Source: Candidatus Binataceae bacterium
Lineage (GTDB): Bacteria > Desulfobacterota > Binatia > Binatales > Binataceae
Direction of reading: 5' to 3'
Assembly: GCA_030041155.1 (NCBI GenBank)
Contig: JASHOJ010000013.1
Coordinates: 1 to 64,000 of the forward strand
DNA: 64,000 bases
Shown here one piece after another: positions 5,026 through 16,690 of this stretch. Each line of letters opens with the position of its first letter. Position 1 is the first letter of the stretch. The translations under genes were made by a program, and so were the position numbers. The notes beneath the pieces were generated by a model. That model made no database searches, had not been told where the DNA came from, and saw only the letters and a program-made list of their open reading frames with translations.

Positions 5026-5103
5026 GGACGCATAGCTCAGCTCGGTTAGAGCACATGCCTCACATGCATGGGGTCGCAGGTTCAAATCCTGCTGCGTCCA
5101 CCA
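5026..5103 (+). tRNA. tRNA-Val(CAC)
   Basis: Cloverleaf read by eye: acceptor GGACGCA (5026-5032) pairs perfectly with TGCGTCC (5093-5099); D arm GCTC/GAGC; anticodon stem CATGC/GCATG with loop CTCACAT and anticodon CAC at 5061-5063 (valine codon GTG); T arm GCAGG-TTCAAAT-CCTGC; discriminator A and an encoded CCA end (5101-5103). Confidence 0.95.
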
Positions 5104-5301
5104 TCCAGTCTCTAGATTTCATTCCGCGGACGGGAAAATAGGGCTGACCAATCAGTTCTGATCGCCGCGGGACATCCCCGGCCAGAAACTCTTAGTTTTT
5201 GTCAAAAAAAAACGTTCGGAGAGTGTAACAAAATCTCGACTGCAAGCGTCTTTTCTTGGAGGCTCGATGACCCTGCTTTGTTATGGGGGGCTTTATTAGG
5301 G

Positions 5302-5817
5302 ATGGAAGATGAAAACTGCCGTTATCTGAGCGCGAAATTGGCTATCGTAGCTTTTTTCGCCGGATACATTCTGGCGATGCGGCCCAGTCCCGCTTGCGCC
5401 GGACTTGGCGGCGATGCTTCCTCGGTCGCTGCCGACGCCGCGGCAACCTCGGGCAAAATGTCGCAGCTTGGCGCGGTTACGCAGCCGCCGCAGCAGTCCA
5501 CGGCCATCTCCGCTCAGTCGTTCGTTACCGGAAACGGAGTCACGGTGCGCGAATATTCAGCGCAGTCGGGCCCGATATTCGGCGTCGCATGGCAGGGGCG
5601 CCGCCCGCCCGATCTCAGCGTGCTGCTCGGCTCGTACTATCCGGAATATCAAGCGGCGGTGAGTGCGCATAAAGGCCCGCTTGGGTTGCATCACGCGGTG
5701 ATCGAAGGACCCAATTCGATCGTCTATCTAAGCGGCCATATGGGCAGTCTCAGCGGCCGCGCTTATGTACCGAGCCTGGTCCCGTCGGGCGTCGATCCCG
5801 CGGCAGTAGTGAAATGA
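5302..5817 (+). CDS. secreted DUF2844 protein, partner of the DUF3443 protein
   Basis: 171 residues from ATG 5302 (a TTG at 5278 is possible; GGGGGG lies about 10 bases before the ATG). An N-terminal hydrophobic segment ends in PACA, so a signal peptide is likely, followed by GLGGDASSVAADAA, the start of DUF2844. The conserved body (VREYSAQSGPIFGVAWQGRRPPDLSVLLGSYY) fits the family. Its stop overlaps the start of the next gene (ATGA, 5814-5817), which shows coupled translation. DUF2844 and DUF3443 genes are commonly neighbours in Burkholderia-type genomes. The function is unknown; a periplasmic or exported partner of the next protein is inferred. Confidence 0.8.
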   Translation: MEDENCRYLSAKLAIVAFFAGYILAMRPSPACAGLGGDASSVAADAAATSGKMSQLGAVTQPPQQSTAISAQSFVTGNGVTVREYSAQSGPIFGVAWQGRRPPDLSVLLGSYYPEYQAAVSAHKGPLGLHHAVIEGPNSIVYLSGHMGSLSGRAYVPSLVPSGVDPAAVVK

Positions 5818-7370
5818 AGATTCGGAATTCCTGGAAGGTGTTCGCGCCGGTTATCTGCCTGGCGATGATCGCGGCCGCCGCGCGCGCGCAGCGCACACCG
5901 GATTCCGCAGCGGCTGATGCGCAGACCTCCTCCGCCGCGAGGCTGGTTTTTTCGCGGAGATCAATCGAATTCGGCGTGGTCAAAGCTGCAAGCATCAAAT
6001 CACTCACGATCAAGAACAAAAGCGATCTGTCAGCGAATGTGACGGTGAACGCTCCATCCGCGCCCTTCAGTGTGGTCGCGGGTGGCGGATCCTATTCGAT
6101 TGCCCCGGGTGATAAGGCGGAAATCTCGGTCGAGTTCGATCCCATCGCGAAGGGTACGGTCAAAGCCGAGATGGAAATTGAGTGCGACAACTGCAAGTCA
6201 GCCCAGCAATCCGTGGTGATCCATCTGAAGGGCAAGTCCAAGGTGGCGGCCGCGACGCCATCCCCATCCCCGTCGCCAACAAGTGGCGGCAACACGCTTT
6301 CGATGTCGGTGACGGCGGGAGCTTACAATTCGCTCGATATGCCGTTCGCATCGCTGACAATTTGTGCGACAGGAACCTCCAATTGCACGACGGTCAACAA
6401 TATCCTGGTCGATACCGGGTCATTCGGTTTGCGCATCTACGGCTCGCAAATCAGCGGATTGGGAATTGCTCCGAACACCAGCGGCGGGGACGAGATCGGC
6501 GAGTGCGCGTTCTTCGGCTCGGGTTCGACCTGGGGCGCGATCTCGACCGTCGACGCCGTAATCGGCGGCGAGCCCAAGATTACAATTCCGATCCAGGTAA
6601 TGGACGATAACGACGCGTTCGCCTCCGCGCCTTCCGACTGCACGCGCGGAACTGAGTTGATCGCGACGCCGGAGGAGGCCCACTTCAACGGTATTCTCGG
6701 TATTGGCGGATACTCCAACGACGCGATTTTCACCGACTATTTCAGCTGCGCGAATGACAGCTGCTCACTGCTCGAAACTGCCCCGAGCGCCGATGTAGTT
6801 CCGAATCCGGCCGCAGCCTTTCCGGTCGATAACAACGGCGTGGTGGTTAGCCTGCCTTCAATCTCCGCAAGCGGCGAACCATCGGCCACCGGCACGCTCT
6901 ACTTCGGTATCGGGACCGAAAGCGACAACCAGCCGGGCTCGGTAACGACCTTCCTGCAAAATTCCGACACCAATAGCGAGGATTTCCTCGATATAAATAC
7001 GATCTTTAGTGGCAGCACCGCGAGCGGCTTCTTTGACACCGGATCGAATGGATACTTCTTCAATGATAATTCGATTAAGCAGTGCTCGGACGGTTCGGGA
7101 TTTTACTGCCCCTCCTCGACCGTATCGGAGAGCGCGACCATTCAGAGCGTGGGCTCATCAGTTTCGGAAGTGGTCGATTTCAATATCGCGGATGCCGATT
7201 CGTTCAACTCGGATTACGCGGCGTTTAACGATCTGGGCGGCACCTACGACGGCGGCAGCTCCTATGATGGCTTCGATTGGGGCCTTCCGTTTTTTTTCGG
7301 ACGCACGGTGTATATAGGCATCGCGGGAGCGTCGTCACCCTTAGGCACGGGACCTTATACAAGCTATTAG
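5814..7370 (+). CDS. DUF3443 protein with Ig-like N-domain and pepsin-like DTGS repeats
   Basis: 518 residues. A signal peptide ends about residue 25 (AAARAQ). Residues about 43-142 form an abnormal-spindle/choice-of-anchor type Ig-like domain (LVFSRRSIEFGVV, then SVEFDPIAKGTV). A Pro/Ser linker (about 148-158) leads into DUF3443. That part has VDTGSFG at 199-205 and FDTGSNG at 407-413, with FNGILGIGG at 291-299 and a C-terminal LPFFFGRTVYIGI (491-503). These match the two active-site loops, the central motif and the C-terminal lobe motif of pepsin-like aspartic peptidases, with the two Asp 208 residues apart. Many Cys suggest an exported, disulfide-bonded protein. Peptidase activity is inference. 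It is translationally coupled to the DUF2844 gene. Confidence 0.8.
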   Translation: MKIRNSWKVFAPVICLAMIAAAARAQRTPDSAAADAQTSSAARLVFSRRSIEFGVVKAASIKSLTIKNKSDLSANVTVNAPSAPFSVVAGGGSYSIAPGDKAEISVEFDPIAKGTVKAEMEIECDNCKSAQQSVVIHLKGKSKVAAATPSPSPSPTSGGNTLSMSVTAGAYNSLDMPFASLTICATGTSNCTTVNNILVDTGSFGLRIYGSQISGLGIAPNTSGGDEIGECAFFGSGSTWGAISTVDAVIGGEPKITIPIQVMDDNDAFASAPSDCTRGTELIATPEEAHFNGILGIGGYSNDAIFTDYFSCANDSCSLLETAPSADVVPNPAAAFPVDNNGVVVSLPSISASGEPSATGTLYFGIGTESDNQPGSVTTFLQNSDTNSEDFLDINTIFSGSTASGFFDTGSNGYFFNDNSIKQCSDGSGFYCPSSTVSESATIQSVGSSVSEVVDFNIADADSFNSDYAAFNDLGGTYDGGSSYDGFDWGLPFFFGRTVYIGIAGASSPLGTGPYTSY

Positions 7371-7411: not shown

Positions 7412-7453
7412 GACAACCTGGCAAGGCGATAAACTCAAGCCGCAAAGGTTGTC
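7412..7453. terminator. candidate bidirectional hairpin between convergent genes
   Basis: GACAACCT (7412-7419) is the exact inverse complement of AGGTTGTC (7446-7453), and inside it GGC/GCC can extend the stem. It sits between the convergent DUF3443 gene and the efflux operon. There is no clear T tract, so termination is only suggested. Confidence 0.35.
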
Positions 7454-8973
7454 TAAGGGGTAGCCAGCTCCTTCAGAAAGGGGCCCGGCTTGTGGAGATA
7501 CTGGTTTTCGTCATGCAGTTGCGCTTGTGACCAGCCGCCACCCAAGTCACCGATCAAGGTCGCGGCGTCAACGAGCCGGCTTTGCTGCACCTGGAGCAAG
7601 GTTTGCTCGTCGCTAAGCGCCGTGGCCTGGGCCGTCGCAACGGTCGTATAGTCCACGGTTCCGGCCAAGTACTCGTTGCGCGCAATCTGTGCACCGCGTT
7701 TTGCATCGGCTACCGCAGCCTCGAGCACCTCGGCCTGCTGGGCGAGGATGCGCAGCGCGGCAAGATTGTCCTCCACACCTTGGAAAGCAGTCAGCACCGT
7801 GGCGCGATAGTTCGCTACGGCCGATTCATACGCCGCCTTGGCAGCGGCCACCTGGGCCGCGCGCGCGCCGAAATCGAAGATCGTCTCACTGCCGGCAGCA
7901 CCAATCGACCAGAGAGTGTTGGCCGCGCTAAACAGACCGCCCAGTGGCTCCTGCAGGAAACCGGCCGCCGCTGAGAGAGTAATCTGCGGATAATACGCGG
8001 CCGTCGCGACGCCGATCGCGGCATTCTCCGCCGCCATGGTGCGTTCCGCGGCCGCGATATCCGGCCGCCGCTCAAGCAGAGTCGACGGCACACCAACGGG
8101 GATGTCCGGCAGTGCCGGCAGACCGGTGCTGCGCGGAATGTCGAGAGCCTCAGGATTCATGCCGGCCAGCACGGCGATCGCGTGCGCATATTGTGCGCGC
8201 GCGACACCCAGCGCGATCAGGTTGGATTGCGCGCCTTCGAGCTGAACGCGCGCGATGAACTCATCGGAAGGCGGGTAGAGGCTATAGCCGGCCTCCACCG
8301 CATTCGCGACCACGCGGAGATATTCCCTGTACTCCGCGACCGTCCTGGTCAGCAGTTCGATATCGGCGTCCGTCACATGCAGATCGATCACCGTGGTCGC
8401 TAGGGTGATTTGGGCGGATAACGTCGCATTGGCCAGCGTCGCTTCGCTTGCCTGCGCGTTGGCTTCATTCTCCTCGATCGTGCGGCGCACCTGGCCCCAG
8501 ATGTCCGGGGTCCAACTCAGCGCGGCTTCGGTCGTCCCCTCGGTGCTCTCTATGTAGCCCGTGCTGCTGGCGGGAGCACTGGTGCTGGTGCCGCCATTCG
8601 TCGCAGCGCTGAAGGGCGTCCGCGAACGCGTCACGGAGCCTGTCGCGGCGATGGTTGGGAACAGAGCGGCGTCGGCCTCGCGCACCAGTTGCAGCGCCTG
8701 TTGGTAGTTCCAATAATCGGCCCGAACAGTCTGGTTCGAGATGATCACTGTGGGTTCGAGTTGATCGAGCAGCGGATCCCGGAACCCGGTCCACCAGTCG
8801 CCCTTGGGGCCTGCATCGGCCGGCGCTGCCGGCGCCCAGCCGGGTATCTCCTTGTATTGCGCCCCGAGCGGAGACACAGGCGGCGGCCGGTGGTAGTCAG
8901 GGCCCACGAGGCAACCCGCGAGCAGCAGAGTAAGCGGCAAGAACGCCGCGTATGCGGCGGCGCGAATCGTCAT
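7453..8973 (-). CDS. outer-membrane channel lipoprotein of RND efflux (NodT/OprM family)
   Basis: 506 residues. The lipobox LLAGC (Cys21) follows a signal segment, and the mature protein begins VGPDYHRPP, the hallmark of OprM/NodT lipoproteins. Two outer-membrane-efflux repeats follow, the second around ARAAQVAAAKAAYESAVANYRATVLTAFQGVEDNLA. It forms the exit duct for the tripartite pump encoded upstream. The start overlaps the previous gene by ATGA (8970-8973). A Ser/Thr/Gly-rich stretch at about residues 122-145 lies where the family is usually shorter. Confidence 0.92.
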   Translation of the reverse strand: MTIRAAAYAAFLPLTLLLAGCLVGPDYHRPPPVSPLGAQYKEIPGWAPAAPADAGPKGDWWTGFRDPLLDQLEPTVIISNQTVRADYWNYQQALQLVREADAALFPTIAATGSVTRSRTPFSAATNGGTSTSAPASSTGYIESTEGTTEAALSWTPDIWGQVRRTIEENEANAQASEATLANATLSAQITLATTVIDLHVTDADIELLTRTVAEYREYLRVVANAVEAGYSLYPPSDEFIARVQLEGAQSNLIALGVARAQYAHAIAVLAGMNPEALDIPRSTGLPALPDIPVGVPSTLLERRPDIAAAERTMAAENAAIGVATAAYYPQITLSAAAGFLQEPLGGLFSAANTLWSIGAAGSETIFDFGARAAQVAAAKAAYESAVANYRATVLTAFQGVEDNLAALRILAQQAEVLEAAVADAKRGAQIARNEYLAGTVDYTTVATAQATALSDEQTLLQVQQSRLVDAATLIGDLGGGWSQAQLHDENQYLHKPGPFLKELATP

Positions 8974-11900
8974 ATGCCGGACCCCATTTCGCTCTGGCGC
9001 CGGCGGGAGAGCCCCGAAGCGAGCTTGACCAACTTGAGCCGCAGCCGCTCGAAAGAGAGATAAATCACCGGTGTTGTAAACAGGGTGAACATCTGACTGA
9101 GGATCAGGCCGCCCATCACGGTAATGCCCAGCGGCCGGCGCAGCGACGAGCCCATGCCGATGCCGACGGCCAGCGGCACCGCGCCCAGCACAGCAGCGGC
9201 GGTGGTCATCAGGATCGGCCGCAGGCGGATCACGGCAGCCTCGTGAATAGCATCGCGCGGATCGCGTTTCTCATTGCGTTCAAGATGGATCGCGACGTCG
9301 ACCATCATGATTCCGTTCTTCTTTACGATCCCGATAAGAAGAATAATCCCGATCAGCGCGATCATCGAGAACGGAACGCCGAATATCAGCAGCGCCAGCG
9401 TAGCACCGATCCCGGCGGAGGGAAGGGTCGAGAGTATGGTTAGCGGATGGATCGTGTTTTCGTACAAGATGCCGAGCACTATATAGACGGTGACCAGAGC
9501 GGCGAGAATCAGCAGCGGGATCGTGGCGAGCGAGTTTGCGAAGACCTTCGCTGTGCCCTGAAGGCTGCCGTGAATCGAGGCAGGCGCGCCCAGATCGTGC
9601 ATCGCCGATTCAATAGCCGCCTGAGCGACGCTCAACGATCCTCCCGGTGGCAGGTTGAAAGAGATCGTCGCTGCGATGAGACCGCTCTGGTGGTTGACCT
9701 GGATCGCCGTATGGTTGTTGACCGAGGTCGCCAGGGCGGGCACCGGCACCATCGTCTCCGGGGACGTGCTGTCGGCGCTGGCGCTCGACGTTCCGCCGCG
9801 GCTGTTCGAGATTGTGTTGGTGTTCGAGTTTGCCTCCGCTGTTTCTGCGAACGCATAGAGCGAGTTAGAGCTGGAAGCGGCCGCCTGTGATGACATGGCC
9901 GGCGAGTATGGAGTAACGCCACTCACCGTGCCGGGGACCATCTGCGTCGATGCCGTACCGGTCACATTGGTCGCGGCGGTGCTGAAGAAGATCCGATTAA
10001 GTTCCTGTGGATGCTGCCAGTATTTCGGCGCGACCTCCATCACGACAAAGTACTGATTATAGGGATTGTAGATCGTCGATACGGTGCGCTGGCCGAATGC
10101 GTCGTAAAGTACCTGATCGATCATGCTCGGCGTGAAGCCGTAGCGCGCCGCCGTGGGCCGGTCGATCGTCACATAGGTTTGCAGGCCATTTTGCTCCATG
10201 TCGGTATTGAGATCCGTCAATTCATCGGGATGCCCTTTGAGGGCCGCAATCAGTTTCGGTACGACCCGGTAAATGGCATCCGGATCGTCGCCTCGGAGCG
10301 TATACTGGTATTCCGCCGCCGATTGCCTGCCGCCAATACGCAGATCCTGCGCCGCCTGCAGAAACAGCCTCGCCCCGGCGACGCCGTTGAGCTTGGGACT
10401 AAGGCGTTGGACGACTTCGCCTGCCGAGGCGCTCCGCTCCGAGAATGGTTTCAGTCCAATGTAGACATTGGCCGTATTGCCCGCCCGGCCGCCCGATCCA
10501 GAGCCGGCGCTGCCGAAGACCGAGCCGACCGCGGGGTCTTTTTGGACGATAGCCTGCAATTGCGCCAGTTTCTGTGACATTGCCGGGAACGAGATGTCCT
10601 GATCGGCGATAATTTCCCCGATGATAAAGCCGGTATCCTGTTCCGGGAACAAGGTTGAGGGGAGCAGCCGGAATAAGAAGACGTCTCCCGCGATTAATCC
10701 GACCACAACGAGCCCGATCAGCAAGGTTCGGTCCAGCACCTTCCACAGCACCCGCGCATACGCATTCTTGAAGCGGTCGAATTGATGCTCTGCCCAGTCG
10801 GCCCAATGCGCCCGGGACTCCGGAGCCGTGCGGCTCTTGAGCAGGCGAGCGCACATGCAGGGCGTGATGGTGAGCGAAATCACCATCGAGATCAGAATGG
10901 ACATTGATAACGTTACCGCGAACTCATGGAACAGAAGGCCCACCGTTCCCGGCAACAGCAGAATTGGGATGAATACGGCGATGAGCGACAGGCTCATCGA
11001 GATGACCGTGAATCCGACCTCGGCGCTGCCTTGCAGGGCGGCCTCGCGCGGGTTCAGGCCGGCTTCTAGATGGCGCACGATATTCTCAAGCACGACCACC
11101 GCATCGTCCACGACGAAGCCAGTGGCGATGGTGAGCGCCATCAGCGATAGATTATCGACGCTATAGCCGAGCAGATACATCGGCCCGAACGTGCCGACGA
11201 TCGACAGCGGCAGCGCTACCGCCGGTATAGATGCCGAGCGCACCGATTGCAGGAAGACGAAGACCACGCCGATCACCAGCACCACCGCGATGCCGAGCGC
11301 GCGCTCCGTGTCGTCTACCGCGGCGTTGACCGATTGCGAGCGGTCCATCGCGAGATGGACGTGGATACCGTGCGGCAAGCTCGCTTCGACAACCGGAAGG
11401 ATTGCCCGGATCTGTGCGTCGGTCGCGACGATATTCGCGTTGGGCATCGGAAAAACGATGACGCCCACCGCCGGCACACCATTGTAGAGTCCGATATTGC
11501 GGATATTCTCGTTCGAATCGATCACGTCAGCGACGTCGTGCAGCATCACCGGTGCGTTGTTGCGATAGGCAATCACGAGGTCCCGATAGTCCGCCGCCTT
11601 CGTCGCCTCATCGTTTGAAAGGACCTCGAAACGTTGATCGCCCTGGTCGATATAGCCTTTGGCGCTGTCGGCATTGGCGGCGGATACGGCCGCCCGCACG
11701 TCCTCCAGGCCGATGCCGTAGCTATTGAGCTTGTCTGGTTCGAGCTCGATACGCACGGCCGGCAAGGCCGCCCCGCCAAGCGTGATCTCGCCAACGCCGC
11801 TGACCTGCGACAACTGCTGCTGAACCACCGTGTCGGCGCTGTCATAGAGCTGAGCCGTCGTCAGCGTCTTAGAGGTCAGCGCCAGGATCATGATCGGTGA

Positions 11901-12308
11901 GTCAGCCGGATTGTAGATGCGCCAGGTTGGGTTGCTGCGCAGGCTCGTCGGCATGTCGGCCCGCGCCGCCTGAATCGCTGCCTGGACGTCGCGCGCGGCA
12001 CCATTGATGTCGCGGCTCACCTCGAACTGGACGACAATCCTGGTAACGCCGACATAGCTCGACGAGGTCAGCTCGGTCACACCGGCGATGACGGCGAGAC
12101 GCTTCTCCAGCGGTTCGGCGACCGTGGCGGCCATGATCTCCGGCGCCGCCCCGGCCATATTCGCCTGGACGACGACCATCGGAAAGGTGATGTTCGGCAA
12201 GGGAGCCACCGGGAGGTGGATATACGCGAGTGCGCCCGACAGGAGGATGGCGACTGCCAACAGAGCCGTCGCAACCGGTCGCTCGATGAAGAGCGCCGAT
12301 ATGTTCAT
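8970..12308 (-). CDS. mdtC: RND efflux permease, MdtC/MuxC type, with a Ser/Thr-rich insertion
   Basis: 1112 residues from ATG 12308 (MNISALFIERPVATALL); the longer frame to 12497 lies inside the upstream gene. Twelve membrane helices and two large periplasmic loops mark an inner-membrane proton-driven exporter of the HAE-1/MdtC class. The conserved segment VDDAVVVLENI and the C-terminal helices LLIGIVKKNGIMMVD are present. Relatives are about 1030 residues; the excess is a low-complexity Ser/Thr/Asn/Ala stretch at about residues 775-855 (nt 9745-9985) in the second periplasmic loop. Start and stop both overlap their neighbours by ATGA, so it is the third gene of a tightly coupled operon. Confidence 0.92.
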   Translation of the reverse strand: MNISALFIERPVATALLAVAILLSGALAYIHLPVAPLPNITFPMVVVQANMAGAAPEIMAATVAEPLEKRLAVIAGVTELTSSSYVGVTRIVVQFEVSRDINGAARDVQAAIQAARADMPTSLRSNPTWRIYNPADSPIMILALTSKTLTTAQLYDSADTVVQQQLSQVSGVGEITLGGAALPAVRIELEPDKLNSYGIGLEDVRAAVSAANADSAKGYIDQGDQRFEVLSNDEATKAADYRDLVIAYRNNAPVMLHDVADVIDSNENIRNIGLYNGVPAVGVIVFPMPNANIVATDAQIRAILPVVEASLPHGIHVHLAMDRSQSVNAAVDDTERALGIAVVLVIGVVFVFLQSVRSASIPAVALPLSIVGTFGPMYLLGYSVDNLSLMALTIATGFVVDDAVVVLENIVRHLEAGLNPREAALQGSAEVGFTVISMSLSLIAVFIPILLLPGTVGLLFHEFAVTLSMSILISMVISLTITPCMCARLLKSRTAPESRAHWADWAEHQFDRFKNAYARVLWKVLDRTLLIGLVVVGLIAGDVFLFRLLPSTLFPEQDTGFIIGEIIADQDISFPAMSQKLAQLQAIVQKDPAVGSVFGSAGSGSGGRAGNTANVYIGLKPFSERSASAGEVVQRLSPKLNGVAGARLFLQAAQDLRIGGRQSAAEYQYTLRGDDPDAIYRVVPKLIAALKGHPDELTDLNTDMEQNGLQTYVTIDRPTAARYGFTPSMIDQVLYDAFGQRTVSTIYNPYNQYFVVMEVAPKYWQHPQELNRIFFSTAATNVTGTASTQMVPGTVSGVTPYSPAMSSQAAASSSNSLYAFAETAEANSNTNTISNSRGGTSSASADSTSPETMVPVPALATSVNNHTAIQVNHQSGLIAATISFNLPPGGSLSVAQAAIESAMHDLGAPASIHGSLQGTAKVFANSLATIPLLILAALVTVYIVLGILYENTIHPLTILSTLPSAGIGATLALLIFGVPFSMIALIGIILLIGIVKKNGIMMVDVAIHLERNEKRDPRDAIHEAAVIRLRPILMTTAAAVLGAVPLAVGIGMGSSLRRPLGITVMGGLILSQMFTLFTTPVIYLSFERLRLKLVKLASGLSRRRQSEMGSGI

Positions 12309-15300
12309 GTCGTGCTCTCGGCCCGCCGGAAACGCCGTGCCAGGCGATCGAAGAAAAGATAAATCACCGGTGAGGTGAAGAGCGTCAGCATCTGGCTCAG
12401 GACGAGACCACCGATGATCGTGACGCCTAGCGGGCGGCGTAACTCGGAACCCATGCCGCCGCCAACCAGCATCGGAAACGCGCCCAGGATCGCGCACATC
12501 GTTGTCATCAGGATGGGCCGGAAGCGCAGGATCGCCGCCTCGAAGATCGCCTCCTCCGCCGACTTACCTCGCTCGCGTTCCGCTTCGAGGGCGAAATCGA
12601 CGATTAGGATCCCATTCTTCTTGACGATGCCGATCAGCAGCACGATCCCGATTATGCTGATGACATTCAGATCCATGCCGCCGAGCATCAGCGCGATCAG
12701 CGCGCCGAGCCCGGCCGAGGGCAAGGTGGAGAGGATGATCACCGGATGGATATAGCTTTCGTAGAGCACGCCCAGCACGATATAAACCGCGACGAGCGCC
12801 GCGAATAGGAGGAACCCTTCGCTCGACAGCGAACTCTCGAATGCCTGCGCCGAACCCTGGAACGAACTCGCGATCGACGGTGGCAGGTGCACCGAGGAGA
12901 TCGCGCGCTTGATCTCGTTGACCGCGGTGCTCAGCGACGCGCCATTGACCAGGTTGAAGGATATTGTCACTGCGGGGAACTGCGCCAGGTGACTGATTAC
13001 GAGCGGCGATTTGCCGACCGTGATATCGGCAATCGCGGACAGCGGCACCTGGCCCGAGCTGCTCGTCTCGCTCGGCAGATAGAGCGTGCCCAGCGATTGC
13101 AGGTTGGGAAGGCGCTCTTCTTTTGCGACCAGGATAACCCGGTATTGGGTCGATTGGTTGAAGATCGTGGTGACGATACGCTGCCCAAGAGCATCATAGA
13201 GCGCGTTGTCGATGGTCGCTGGCGTGATGCCGAAGCGTGCGGCGAGCTGCCGGTTGACCTCGACATTGACTGTTAGTCCTTCGTTGTTGAGGTCGCTCAT
13301 GACGTCGTTGACCGACTTCATCTGCTTCATTTTATCGATGATACGAGGGACGTATTTGTTGAAATCCTGCGGGTTCGATCCACGCAGCACGAACTGGTAC
13401 TGGTTCGCCGAGATGGTCGTATCGAGCGTCAGGTCTTGCTCGGGCTCGAGATAGAGCCTGACGCCGGGAATATGCGCTGTTTCGCGCTCGATCCGCCGCC
13501 CGATCTGCTGCGCGGTGAGGCTGCGGGCACTGATCGGCTTGAGATTGATCAGGAAGCGGCCGTTATTGAGGGTCGTGTTAGTGCCGTCTATCCCGATATA
13601 CGAGGTCAGGCTGGTGACGGCGGGATCGTGCATGATCACGCGGTCCAACTCCATCTGCCGCTCCGACATTGACTTGTAAGAGACCGAGTTGTCGGCGACG
13701 CTGATTCCCTGGATGACGCCGACATCCTCGACCGGGAACAGGCCCTTCGGGATGACGAAAAAGAGGAAGCCCGTCAATGCCACGGCGATGACGGGGATCC
13801 ACAGGGTCAGGCGCTGATGGCGCAGGACCCAGCGCAGACCATGCTCATAGGCGTCACGTGTCCGGTCGAACAAATTCTCGCTGACGCGCTCGAACCAGCT
13901 CGGACGGCGTTCGCCCTCGCGTCTGAGCATGCGAGCGCAGAGCATCGGCACCAATGTCAGCGAGACAATGGCCGAGAGCAGGATCGTGACCGCCAGCGTA
14001 ACCGCGAACTCGCTGAAGAGACGCCCAACCACGCCACCCATGAACAGGAGCGGGATGAGCACGGCGATCAGCGATACGGTCAGCGAGACGATCGTGAAGC
14101 CGATCTGGCCCGCGCCGGTCAGTGCGGCGTCGAGCGGGCTCTTCCCCTCTTCGAGATAGCGCACGATGTTCTCGATCATCACGATCGAATCATCCACGAC
14201 GAAGCCGGTCGCGATGATGAGCGCCATGAGCGACAGGTTGTCGATCGAGTAGTTGAGCTTGTACATCAGCGCCAGCGTGCCGATCAGCGAGACCGGCACT
14301 GAAATGCTCGGGATGATGGTCGCCGGAACATTCCTCAGAAAGACGAAGATCACCAGCACAACGAGCACGATCGACAGCACCAGCTCGTAGAAAGCATCAC
14401 TGACCGACGCACGGATCGCGGTGGTGCTGTCCGCAACGATCTGCACATGCATCGATTGCGGCAGGCCCGCCAGCAGCTGCGGCATCTCCTTCTTGATCTG
14501 ATCAACGGTCTCGATGACATTGGCACCCGGCTGGCGCTGCACGTTGAGCACGATCGCGGGCGTCGTGTTGATCCAGGCGCCCTGCTCGACATCCTGTGCG
14601 GCCTCCTTGACCGACGCGACATCGCGCAGCAGCACCGGCGAGCCATTCTGGTAGGCAATGACCGAGTTGAGATAATCCTGCGGGTCAGAGATCTGATCGT
14701 TGTCGTTGATCGTGTAGTCGAGTTCCAGGCCGTCGAAGTTGCCCTTCGGTTGCATCAGCGTGATATTGCTGAGCAGCGTGCGCAGATCGTCGATGTTGAG
14801 GCCGTAGCCGGAGAGCTTCTGCGGATCGGCTATCACCCGAATCGCCGGCACGTTGCCGCCGCCCAGGCTGACGAGGCCGACGCCCGGCACCTCGGCGATC
14901 TTCGAGGCAAGCCGAGTGTTCGCCATGTCCTGCAGGTCGATGAGGGACATCGATTTCGAGGTCACGGCCAGCGTCAGGATCGGCTGATCGGCGGGATTAA
15001 CCTTGGCATAGGTCGGCGGCGCCGGCAGTCCGGTCGGCAGGAAGCTGTTCGCGGCGTTGATCGCCTCCTGCACGTCTTGCTCGGCGACATCGAGATCCAT
15101 CGAAAGGTCGAACTGCAACGTGATGACCGAAGCCGTCGCGGAGCTGGAAGAGATCATTTGCTGCAAGCCGGGAATCTCGCCTAGCTGCACCTCCAGCGGC
15201 GCGGTCACCGTGGTCGACATCACTTGCGGACTGGCGCCCGGATAGAAGGTCAGAACCTGGATCGTCGGATACTCGACGTCGGGCAGGGATGACACGGGCA

Positions 15301-15394
15301 GGAAGCGGACCGCCACCAGGCCAACGAGCACGATTGCGATCATCAGCAACGCCGTCGCCACCGGCCGCATGATGAACAGGCGGGATATGTTCAT
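12305..15394 (-). CDS. mdtB: RND efflux permease, MdtB/MuxB type
   Basis: 1029 residues, the usual length. It starts MNISRLFIMRPVATALLMIAIV, has the first periplasmic segment SSLPDVEYPTIQVLTFYPGASPQVM typical of MdtB, the helix-4 region VVDDSIVMIENIV, and ends with the expected final helices. In E. coli MdtB and MdtC assemble into one heterotrimer served by one adaptor; the gene order here (adaptor, MdtB-like, MdtC-like, outer-membrane channel) equals Pseudomonas MuxABC-OpmB. It overlaps both neighbours by four bases, suggesting fixed stoichiometry. Substrates cannot be told from sequence. Confidence 0.93.
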   Translation of the reverse strand: MNISRLFIMRPVATALLMIAIVLVGLVAVRFLPVSSLPDVEYPTIQVLTFYPGASPQVMSTTVTAPLEVQLGEIPGLQQMISSSSATASVITLQFDLSMDLDVAEQDVQEAINAANSFLPTGLPAPPTYAKVNPADQPILTLAVTSKSMSLIDLQDMANTRLASKIAEVPGVGLVSLGGGNVPAIRVIADPQKLSGYGLNIDDLRTLLSNITLMQPKGNFDGLELDYTINDNDQISDPQDYLNSVIAYQNGSPVLLRDVASVKEAAQDVEQGAWINTTPAIVLNVQRQPGANVIETVDQIKKEMPQLLAGLPQSMHVQIVADSTTAIRASVSDAFYELVLSIVLVVLVIFVFLRNVPATIIPSISVPVSLIGTLALMYKLNYSIDNLSLMALIIATGFVVDDSIVMIENIVRYLEEGKSPLDAALTGAGQIGFTIVSLTVSLIAVLIPLLFMGGVVGRLFSEFAVTLAVTILLSAIVSLTLVPMLCARMLRREGERRPSWFERVSENLFDRTRDAYEHGLRWVLRHQRLTLWIPVIAVALTGFLFFVIPKGLFPVEDVGVIQGISVADNSVSYKSMSERQMELDRVIMHDPAVTSLTSYIGIDGTNTTLNNGRFLINLKPISARSLTAQQIGRRIERETAHIPGVRLYLEPEQDLTLDTTISANQYQFVLRGSNPQDFNKYVPRIIDKMKQMKSVNDVMSDLNNEGLTVNVEVNRQLAARFGITPATIDNALYDALGQRIVTTIFNQSTQYRVILVAKEERLPNLQSLGTLYLPSETSSSGQVPLSAIADITVGKSPLVISHLAQFPAVTISFNLVNGASLSTAVNEIKRAISSVHLPPSIASSFQGSAQAFESSLSSEGFLLFAALVAVYIVLGVLYESYIHPVIILSTLPSAGLGALIALMLGGMDLNVISIIGIVLLIGIVKKNGILIVDFALEAERERGKSAEEAIFEAAILRFRPILMTTMCAILGAFPMLVGGGMGSELRRPLGVTIIGGLVLSQMLTLFTSPVIYLFFDRLARRFRRAESTT

Positions 15395-16638
15395 CCGGGC
15401 GGACCGTTTTGGCTCGGTGAAGGGGCGCGCTGACCCGGTTCTCCGCCAGTTCCAGAGCGTCCGGTCTTTGCCGTGTTGGCGACCTTGATCTTGGCGCCGT
15501 CGCTCAGCCGGTCAGTGCCGTCCGTCACTACCAGGTCGCCGGTAGTGAGACCCTTCAAGATGACAGTGTACGTGCCGTTACTCGGTCCGACCGTGACTTT
15601 CCGCACCGAAACCGAGTCGTCCTTGCTGTCCTTGTTGACCAGATAAACGTAGTCGCCGGGAGCGCCAGTCAAGACAGCAGGGGTCGGCACCAGCACGGCA
15701 CCGGTTAATGTGTTGACGAGCAGCTGCACGTTGACGAACTCATTCGGGAACAAAATCTCATTATCGTTGGGAAACATCGCGCGCAGCGTGACTGTGCCGG
15801 TGCTCGTGGTCATTTGGTTATTGAGTGCGTACAGGGTGCCGGTCCCAAGCTTCTTGGTGTTATCGCTGGTAAACGCCGTCACCGACAGCTTCGCACCGGG
15901 CGTATTGAACCGATCGACGACCTTGGCGAGATCGTTCTGAGCGACCGTGAATTCGACCGTGGTCGGCTTCATGGTGGTGATAACGGCAAGGCCCGTGCTC
16001 GAGCTTCCGGTTATGTAGTTCCCCGGATCCACCAGACGCAGGCCCACGCGGCCGGCTACCGGCGAGGTGATGTGGCAGTAGATAATGTCGAGCTCGTACT
16101 GGGCGATATTCGCCTGATCCATCTTGACCGCGGCCGCGTCCTGCTGCACCAGGAATTTCTGATCTACGTAAGTCTGCTCAGCGATCGATTTTTGCTTCTC
16201 CAGCCGCGCGTAACGGGCAAGGTCTGAACGTGCTTGCGCCAGCGTCGCGATATCTTTCGCAAGCTGCGCTTCCGCTTGCTGCTTCAGGACCTCGTAGGGG
16301 CGCGGATCGATCTGGGCCAGCAATTGACCCTTCCTGACGTCCTGCCCTTCCTGGAAGGGCACTTCGGTCAAATAGCCGCTGACCGCCTGGTTTGGCAGCA
16401 CGGTAACCGTGGCGATCGGCGTAACGGTGCCCAGCTCGCTCAGGATTACCGGCATTTGGCCCAGTTGCGCTGGCGCAACTTCGACGACTTGCGATCCCAT
16501 ACCCTTGGATGGCGGCTTTTCGGTCGCAAGATGCCACACCACGAGAGCGATCAGGATCAACACCCCGAACGCCAGCCACCAACGCAGACGATGGTTGCCA
16601 GGACGAGAAAACGATTGAGTGTTCGTATCTTGGCTCAT
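15391..16638 (-). CDS. mdtA: periplasmic adaptor (membrane fusion protein) of the efflux pump, MdtA type
   Basis: 415 residues from ATG 16638 (MSQDTNTQSFSRPGNHRLRW); ten extra residues are possible upstream. It has a single N-terminal membrane anchor (about 21-38), a lipoyl half-motif (GYLTEVPFQEGQDVRKGQLLAQIDPRPYE), an alpha-hairpin coiled coil (about 105-160), the second lipoyl half (SPVAGRVGLRLVDPGNYI), a beta-barrel and a Gly/Pro-rich tail. It bridges the RND trimer and the outer-membrane channel. First gene of the operon; two 14-bp direct repeats about 50-85 bp upstream may be its regulatory site. No regulator gene is adjacent. Confidence 0.92.
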   Translation of the reverse strand: MSQDTNTQSFSRPGNHRLRWWLAFGVLILIALVVWHLATEKPPSKGMGSQVVEVAPAQLGQMPVILSELGTVTPIATVTVLPNQAVSGYLTEVPFQEGQDVRKGQLLAQIDPRPYEVLKQQAEAQLAKDIATLAQARSDLARYARLEKQKSIAEQTYVDQKFLVQQDAAAVKMDQANIAQYELDIIYCHITSPVAGRVGLRLVDPGNYITGSSSTGLAVITTMKPTTVEFTVAQNDLAKVVDRFNTPGAKLSVTAFTSDNTKKLGTGTLYALNNQMTTSTGTVTLRAMFPNDNEILFPNEFVNVQLLVNTLTGAVLVPTPAVLTGAPGDYVYLVNKDSKDDSVSVRKVTVGPSNGTYTVILKGLTTGDLVVTDGTDRLSDGAKIKVANTAKTGRSGTGGEPGQRAPSPSQNGPPG

Positions 16639-16690
16639 GTATAGAACATGGGTGCTGAGAAGCAACAATACAGAGGTACAGTTAAGCCGA

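Follow-up and report, generated by a model that had tools for sequence, protein, structure and literature searches.

DUF3443 as a probable bilobal pepsin-fold aspartic peptidase of the bacterial envelope, with DUF2844 as its near-obligate partner gene

Does the DUF3443 gene found in a 64,000-nucleotide stretch of DNA from a Candidatus Binataceae bacterium (the whole stretch is hereafter called the window) encode an exported aspartic peptidase of the pepsin type, as was originally predicted from its motifs? In Pfam (models to 2025), DUF3443 and DUF2844, the family encoded directly upstream, are both still named as being of unknown function, and NCBIfam has no model for the DUF3443 catalytic domain. 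Literature searches by DUF names and accessions, with subscription journals outside their scope, retrieved mention of neither family, only Plasmodium names of the PF11_005 type. Pepsin-type enzymes themselves were for a long time regarded as eukaryotic. When bacterial homologues were first described, they were rare and predicted to be cytoplasmic (PMC2761423), and mycobacterial PecA is a surface exception among bacterial pepsin-type enzymes (PMC6819658). Our analysis makes it probable that DUF3443 is a bilobal pepsin-fold aspartic peptidase of the bacterial envelope, with DUF2844 as its dedicated accessory protein. If DUF3443 is a peptidase, it adds an exported, disulphide-bonded and mostly lipid-anchored family from at least six phyla, and two families of unknown function would together gain a testable function.

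The DUF3443 gene and conservation of its motifs

Translation of positions 5814-7370 on the plus strand gave 518 residues followed by a stop, with numerous stops on the minus strand across the same stretch; this ORF is the DUF3443 gene (Table 1). The DUF3443 model (PF11925) matched residues 160-518 with E 2.8e-101 and 339.5 bits (cut-off 25), covering profile positions 5-367 of 367. The motifs VDTGSFG, FDTGSNG and FNGILGIGG and the C-terminal region LPFFFGRTVYIGI lie exactly at the positions claimed beforehand, D200 and D408 being 208 residues apart and L491-PFFFGRTVYIGI-503 being confirmed. Export and fusion to an Ig-like domain were borne out as well: a signal peptide ending in ARA at residue 25 can be read by eye, and residues 43-140 match the HYDIN/ASPM-SPD2-type domain PF22544 (E 1.5e-08). 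A tRNA-Val (cac) gene lies just upstream of the DUF2844-DUF3443 unit (5026-5103, plus strand), tRNAs being common sites of gene insertion. An RND efflux operon (7453-16668, minus strand), encoding an outer membrane factor, two RND pumps and a membrane fusion protein, is convergent with the unit and probably unrelated to it.

Table 1. Features of the DUF2844-DUF3443 unit in the window
Feature	Position	Strand	Evidence
DUF2844 (PF11005), small exported partner	5278..5817	+	Pfam E 4e-32; signal peptide by eye
DUF2844 mature part	about 5401-5814	+	within 5278..5817
DUF3443 gene, predicted exported bilobal aspartic peptidase, 518 aa	5814..7370	+	
Signal peptide, residues 1-25 (MKIRNSWKVFAPVICLAMIAAAARA), probable signal peptidase I site	5814..5888	+	sequence inspection
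Ig-like HYDIN/ASPM-SPD2-type domain, residues 43-140, probable stalk	5940..6233	+	PF22544, E 1.5e-08
DUF3443 domain, residues 160-518, pepsin-like bilobal fold (predicted)	6291..7367	+	PF11925, AlphaFold2, Foldseek
N-lobe catalytic motif (putative) VDTGSFG (199-205), D200	6408..6428	+	D, T 68/68; G 61/68
Flap-like hairpin, residues 231-247 (CAFFGSGSTWGAISTVD)	6504..6554	+	F234 at pepsin Tyr75 position; W240-G241 invariant
N-lobe psi-loop FNGILGIGG (291-299)	6684..6710	+	G293, G296 invariant
C-lobe catalytic motif (putative) FDTGSNG (407-413), D408	7032..7052	+	D, G, S 68/68
C-lobe psi-loop region FDWGLPFFFGRTVYIGI	7272..7322	+	G490, F493 68/68; F487, D488, P492 67/68

In 20,000 shuffles of the window protein, two hD[TS]G[ST] motifs arose in 0.095% of cases and two such motifs 170-230 residues apart in 0.02%, so the correctly spaced pair is unlikely to be a product of chance; conservation settles the point. 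Homologues were gathered by a family search in the window's order and phylum, and GTDB genomes were scanned with an alignment. A single-sequence search of genome contigs gave none, and relatives were retrieved with a 16-member alignment. The GTDB scan found at least 553 relatives, 80 of which were kept, and the family occurs in Pseudomonadota, Acidobacteriota, Nitrospirota, Thermodesulfobacteriota, Bdellovibrionota and Myxococcota.

Conservation was scored in an alignment of the window protein with 67 homologues from several phyla, whose 68 rows share about 40% identity. Loss of either DTG Asp had been set beforehand as the outcome that would count against the prediction; D200 and D408 are each present in 68/68. 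T201, the second motif as D-[ST]-G-S, G293 and G296 of GILG, W240, G241 and R207 are likewise invariant, and G202 is found in 61/68. Just four of the 28 Asp residues of the domain (200, 303, 408 and 488) reach 67/68 or more. In the remaining seven rows the Gly of the first DTG is replaced by Ala, Met or Ser. These proteins (L027, L032, L044, L048, L066, L070 and L086), with DTM, DTA or DTS and all other features retained, are natural tests of the need for this Gly.

Predicted fold and relation to known aspartic peptidases

The bilobal pepsin-like fold of the original prediction was recovered when residues 158-518 were modelled with AlphaFold2, from alignment rows of DUF3443 alone and without templates. 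The best model reached pLDDT 93.6 and pTM 0.93, and all five lay at pLDDT 92.7-93.6. Foldseek returned 469 PDB matches at E <= 0.001, and the best 50 of these were all bilobal members of the pepsin family (probability 1.00, E 2e-12 to 2e-11), among them BACE1, endothiapepsin, plasmepsin, penicillopepsin and rhizopuspepsin, with about 400 alignment columns spanning the whole domain. The match is a distant one, since the listed pepsins gave TM-scores of only about 0.46-0.62 and rmsd of 5-9 A. On the strength of the model, we have high confidence that the DUF3443 domain adopts the two-lobed pepsin fold.

Searches from sequence led much less far. Among PDB sequences, phmmer and profile searches with DUF3443 gave chance matches only. 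Against a porcine pepsin sequence that matches 1f34_A over all 326 residues (E 2.3e-216), hhalign aligned 14 columns around DTGS with a probability of 1.35%, and when one DUF3443 lobe was compared with the other it aligned the DTGS motif alone. As just this motif was aligned, neither homology to pepsin nor an internal duplication can be read from the residues by themselves. The A1 model of Pfam (Asp, PF00026) matched neither the window protein nor the DUF3443 homologues searched; across 395 genomes of the phylum it gave 0 matches, but so did the controls, and absence is not established by that count. Some members of the family nevertheless touch other aspartic peptidase models: a Bdellovibrionales protein (L071) matches Asp_protease_2 over its N-lobe at 24.4 bits (gathering threshold 24.3), and a Nitrospirae protein (L040) matches PE-PGRS_C over its N-lobe (E 2.9e-05, 24 bits vs a cut-off of 33). 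PE-PGRS_C (PF20729) is matched by three DUF3443 members in all, the best at 1.4e-06, and does not match the window protein.

These matches bear on whether the model might be an artefact, with short motifs alone having led the predictor to the pepsin fold. Such an artefact could be suspected where the PDB offers neither template nor sequence match. Yet the five models concur at the confidence given above, the order and spacing of the motifs are as in pepsin throughout, and Asp_protease_2 and PE-PGRS_C find DUF3443 homologues with no structure involved; we therefore regard an artefact as scarcely credible.

In the window's order, the PE-PGRS_C search gave one weak match, to a protein of the window's bacterial family (L102:805-2424, genome G318; E 1.7e-4). 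This protein is of a second exported type: it carries a single IDTGS motif, has LLDVGIS close to its C-terminus and probably has a lipobox. It perhaps represents another aspartic-peptidase-like family of this lineage, one whose second motif is altered. Two proteins of about 670-680 aa (G569:C57:3381-3656 and G607:C34:1572-1844) match DUF3443 positions 47-148 weakly and partially, and are possibly further relatives of its N-lobe.

Where, then, should DUF3443 be placed? With clan AA it shares the pepsin-like beta fold (Foldseek E 2.4e-12, probability 1.00) and a conserved Asp pair, and with family A1 a single chain whose two lobes contribute one Asp apiece. It lacks three features of A1, namely detectable sequence homology to A1 members, the flap Tyr75 and the second hydrophobic-hydrophobic-Gly, and we therefore place it in clan AA outside A1, with no family assigned. 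The single-lobe homodimer of the retropepsin-like type (A2) does not apply, as both DUF3443 lobes lie in one chain.

Comparison with particular enzymes sharpens this placement. Like pepsin, BACE1, endothiapepsin and plasmepsin of A1, DUF3443 has two lobes with one D[TS]G[ST] each, about 200 residues apart, a flap hairpin and an N-lobe GILG psi-loop. Unlike them, it is a bacterial envelope protein, without detectable whole-length sequence homology to A1, that has eight conserved Cys of its own, Phe at the Tyr75 position, Arg at that of Trp39, a flap Trp and a C-lobe D-W-G. The shewasins and other bacterial A1 homologues (PMC2761423, PMC4814920) are also bilobal, bacterial and of pepsin fold, and those of Shewanella and Colwellia share with DUF3443 a Leu at the Asp303 position; however, they lack a signal peptide and are predicted to be cytoplasmic, whereas DUF3443 is exported, disulphide-rich and unmatched by PF00026. 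RloA and RimB of Pseudomonas (PMC12239564) are bacterial clan AA aspartic proteases as well, RloA being exported, but they are single-lobed and retropepsin-like.

The PE_PGRS aspartic protease domain (PecA/PE_PGRS35, PE_PGRS16 and PE26; PF20729) is, like DUF3443, exported, bacterial and bilobal. It belongs to mycobacterial proteins with PE/PGRS domains and type VII secretion, in contrast to the Sec signal or lipobox of DUF3443, and we know of no DUF2844 partner for these proteases. In Mycobacterium marinum, PecA is an aspartic protease of the cell surface whose motifs are DTG/DSG; it cleaves LipY as well as its own chain, and self-cleavage is lost in its D293G mutant (PMC6819658). PecA is the nearest working precedent for the proposed DUF3443 peptidase.

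Whether DUF3443 is a separate, old, exported bacterial bilobal lineage, distinct from A1 and forming an obligate two-component enzyme with DUF2844, seems to us an evenly balanced question. A bilobal lineage in bacteria is relevant to whether the gene duplication that gave rise to pepsin is older than the eukaryotes, and the DUF3443-DUF2844 pair, if the proposal is true, would be both a bacterial test case for the timing of that duplication and a new kind of regulated envelope protease.

The putative active site and its departures from pepsin

As far as can be told from sequence and model, DUF3443 would work like a pepsin-type enzyme. Catalysis and the geometry of its dyad are what we infer here: D200 and D408, one from each lobe, would bind and activate a water for attack on the substrate's peptide bond, and the substrate would lie in the cleft beneath the flap (residues about 231-247, including F234 and W240). 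The flap itself was placed by motif comparison with pepsin: pepsin YGTGSMTGILGYDTVQVGG was aligned with DUF3443 FGSGSTWGAISTVDAVIGG using the motifs as anchors, and the register of this alignment is likewise indirect. In this register, the position of pepsin Tyr75 is occupied by F234 in the window protein, with Phe in 63/68 rows and Tyr in 5/68. Pepsin position 81 is an invariant Trp in DUF3443, and an invariant Arg takes the place of Trp39, which in pepsin contacts Tyr75. Rawlings and Bateman noted that activity had been shown for no Phe75 homologue, and also that Y75F rhizopuspepsin is weakened, not dead (PMC2761423).

The N-lobe keeps the hydrophobic-hydrophobic-Gly element as I/V/L-L-G296 (I-L-G296 in the window protein), and its C-lobe counterpart is D488-W489-G490, with the Asp in 67/68 rows. 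The set of pepsin signatures that the original prediction called complete is therefore nearly but not strictly so: almost all of its elements are there, and the exceptions are the flap Phe, the C-lobe D-W-G and the first DTG Gly lost in 7/68. Two further positions touch on pH. Where pepsin has Thr218 and Asp303, DUF3443 has Ser (68/68) and Leu (60/68); loss of the 218-303 hydrogen bond has been tied to neutral pH, Leu303 being known from the Shewanella and Colwellia homologues (PMC2761423). Given this Ser and Leu, the pH optimum of DUF3443 may be neutral and not acid.

The same departures could mean that DUF3443 has kept the pepsin fold but lost peptide cleavage, being now a surface binding or inhibitor protein comparable in principle to the A1 xylanase inhibitor, in which the cleft binds a ligand and the Asp pair serves binding or structure. 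The change of flap Tyr to Phe, the D-W-G and the loss of the first DTG Gly in 7/68 would suit such a protein, and PE_PGRS16 has the fold, yet no activity was seen for it (PMC6819658). Inactive A1 relatives, however, are recognised by loss of an active-site Asp (PMC2761423), whereas in DUF3443 both Asp persist in 68/68 rows at about 40% identity across several phyla, and within a D[TS]x[ST] context. A non-cutting DUF3443 thus appears unlikely to us, and we retain the peptidase as the preferred reading.

Export and the partner protein DUF2844

In the mechanism we propose, the signal peptide would take the DUF3443 protein across the inner membrane, where most homologues would then be lipidated at a Cys; the window protein has a signal of the signal peptidase I type. 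A lipobox follows the signal in at least 59 of 80 DUF3443 homologues, and by eye in several others. Behind it come Gly/Ser-rich (low-complexity), Big_2 or other stalks, with the DUF3443 domain at the C-terminus of those homologues that were inspected. Few members share the window protein's architecture of a plain signal followed by an Ig-like stalk; L019, from the window's bacterial family, resembles it. Such stalks would raise the domain, and disulphides would stiffen it: eight Cys are conserved in 65-68 of the 68 rows, which fits an oxidising compartment, as expected there.

The gene DUF2844 is a near-obligate partner of DUF3443, which was missed by the original prediction and is new here. 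In the window, its stop overlaps the DUF3443 start (ATGA). When all frames were searched iteratively with HMMs, DUF2844 adjoined DUF3443 on the same strand in 95/100 loci; at least two of the five loci without it are contig ends or fragments. It lies upstream in 75/77 scored cases and downstream in two Nitrospirae, and downstream also in two loci of the window's bacterial family (L018 and L020). Among the 41 genomes of the window's order, DUF3443 was found in 13 and DUF2844 in 12, all among those 13. Among 200 genomes from the order to which Collimonas sp. OK307 belongs, DUF3443 was found in 20 (19 over the cut-off), about a tenth of the genomes sampled from this proteobacterial order, and DUF2844 in 18, all within the DUF3443 genomes. 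The two surveys, covering 241 genomes, thus contain no case of DUF2844 without DUF3443, while DUF3443 sometimes occurs without DUF2844. Where a genome has two or three copies, the copy numbers of both genes are usually equal. Within the window's phylum the distribution of DUF3443 is patchy (5/297 genomes).

No other recurrent neighbour emerged when one was sought at the DUF3443 loci, since most candidates were antisense frames or frames that overlapped. In 14 loci a response-regulator cluster recurred, but it was discarded, this being about the number expected for such common genes, and an apparent DUF2844-DUF3443 fusion (L008) is joined by a run of N. That DUF2844 is the sole recurrent neighbour, and that neither neighbour nor substrate suggests protein turnover, would allow DUF3443 to be a hydrolase or other enzyme of different chemistry on a pepsin fold, acting for example on envelope glycans or lipids. 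Its motif context, however, is that of peptidases, and we know of no non-peptidase enzyme of pepsin fold with an intact DTG/DSG pair; we consider a different chemistry very improbable.

A signal peptide can be read by eye in nearly all DUF2844 proteins. The DUF2844 model has pLDDT 83, with residues 20-26 of the mature part as its only low-confidence stretch, and among PDB structures it gave no significant match (best E 0.066). The only near-significant match to a PDB sequence, a designed toroid (1.3e-3), was rejected, as no stretch of it passes on its own. Since DUF2844 is small, exported, made first and never seen without DUF3443, its best explanation is an inhibitor, a chaperone or a subunit; with no significant structural match for its model, its role is a guess. 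Translated just before DUF3443, it would act on the peptidase as inhibitor, chaperone or obligate subunit.

The main rival for this role is that DUF3443 mainly cleaves DUF2844, which would then be a dedicated substrate or a zymogen-like prodomain in trans. Near one-to-one pairing, the 241 genomes without a solitary DUF2844, export of both proteins and the usual translation of DUF2844 first all agree with cleavage, as does the correlation of protein distances between the families (r 0.72), which is confounded by shared ancestry. But an inhibitor, chaperone or subunit fits the same pattern, DUF2844 contains no outstanding cleavage site, and DUF3443 sometimes does without it. Cleavage of DUF2844 as the main function is a possible but rather doubtful reading, and an inhibitor, chaperone or subunit remains the one we prefer.

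One genome (G301) contains three DUF3443-DUF2844 pairs, and in one of these (L020) the DUF3443 frame is shortened at its N-terminus. G301 also encodes a divergent DUF3443 protein (L018:1501-3915), whose N-terminal half resembles Kelch repeats.
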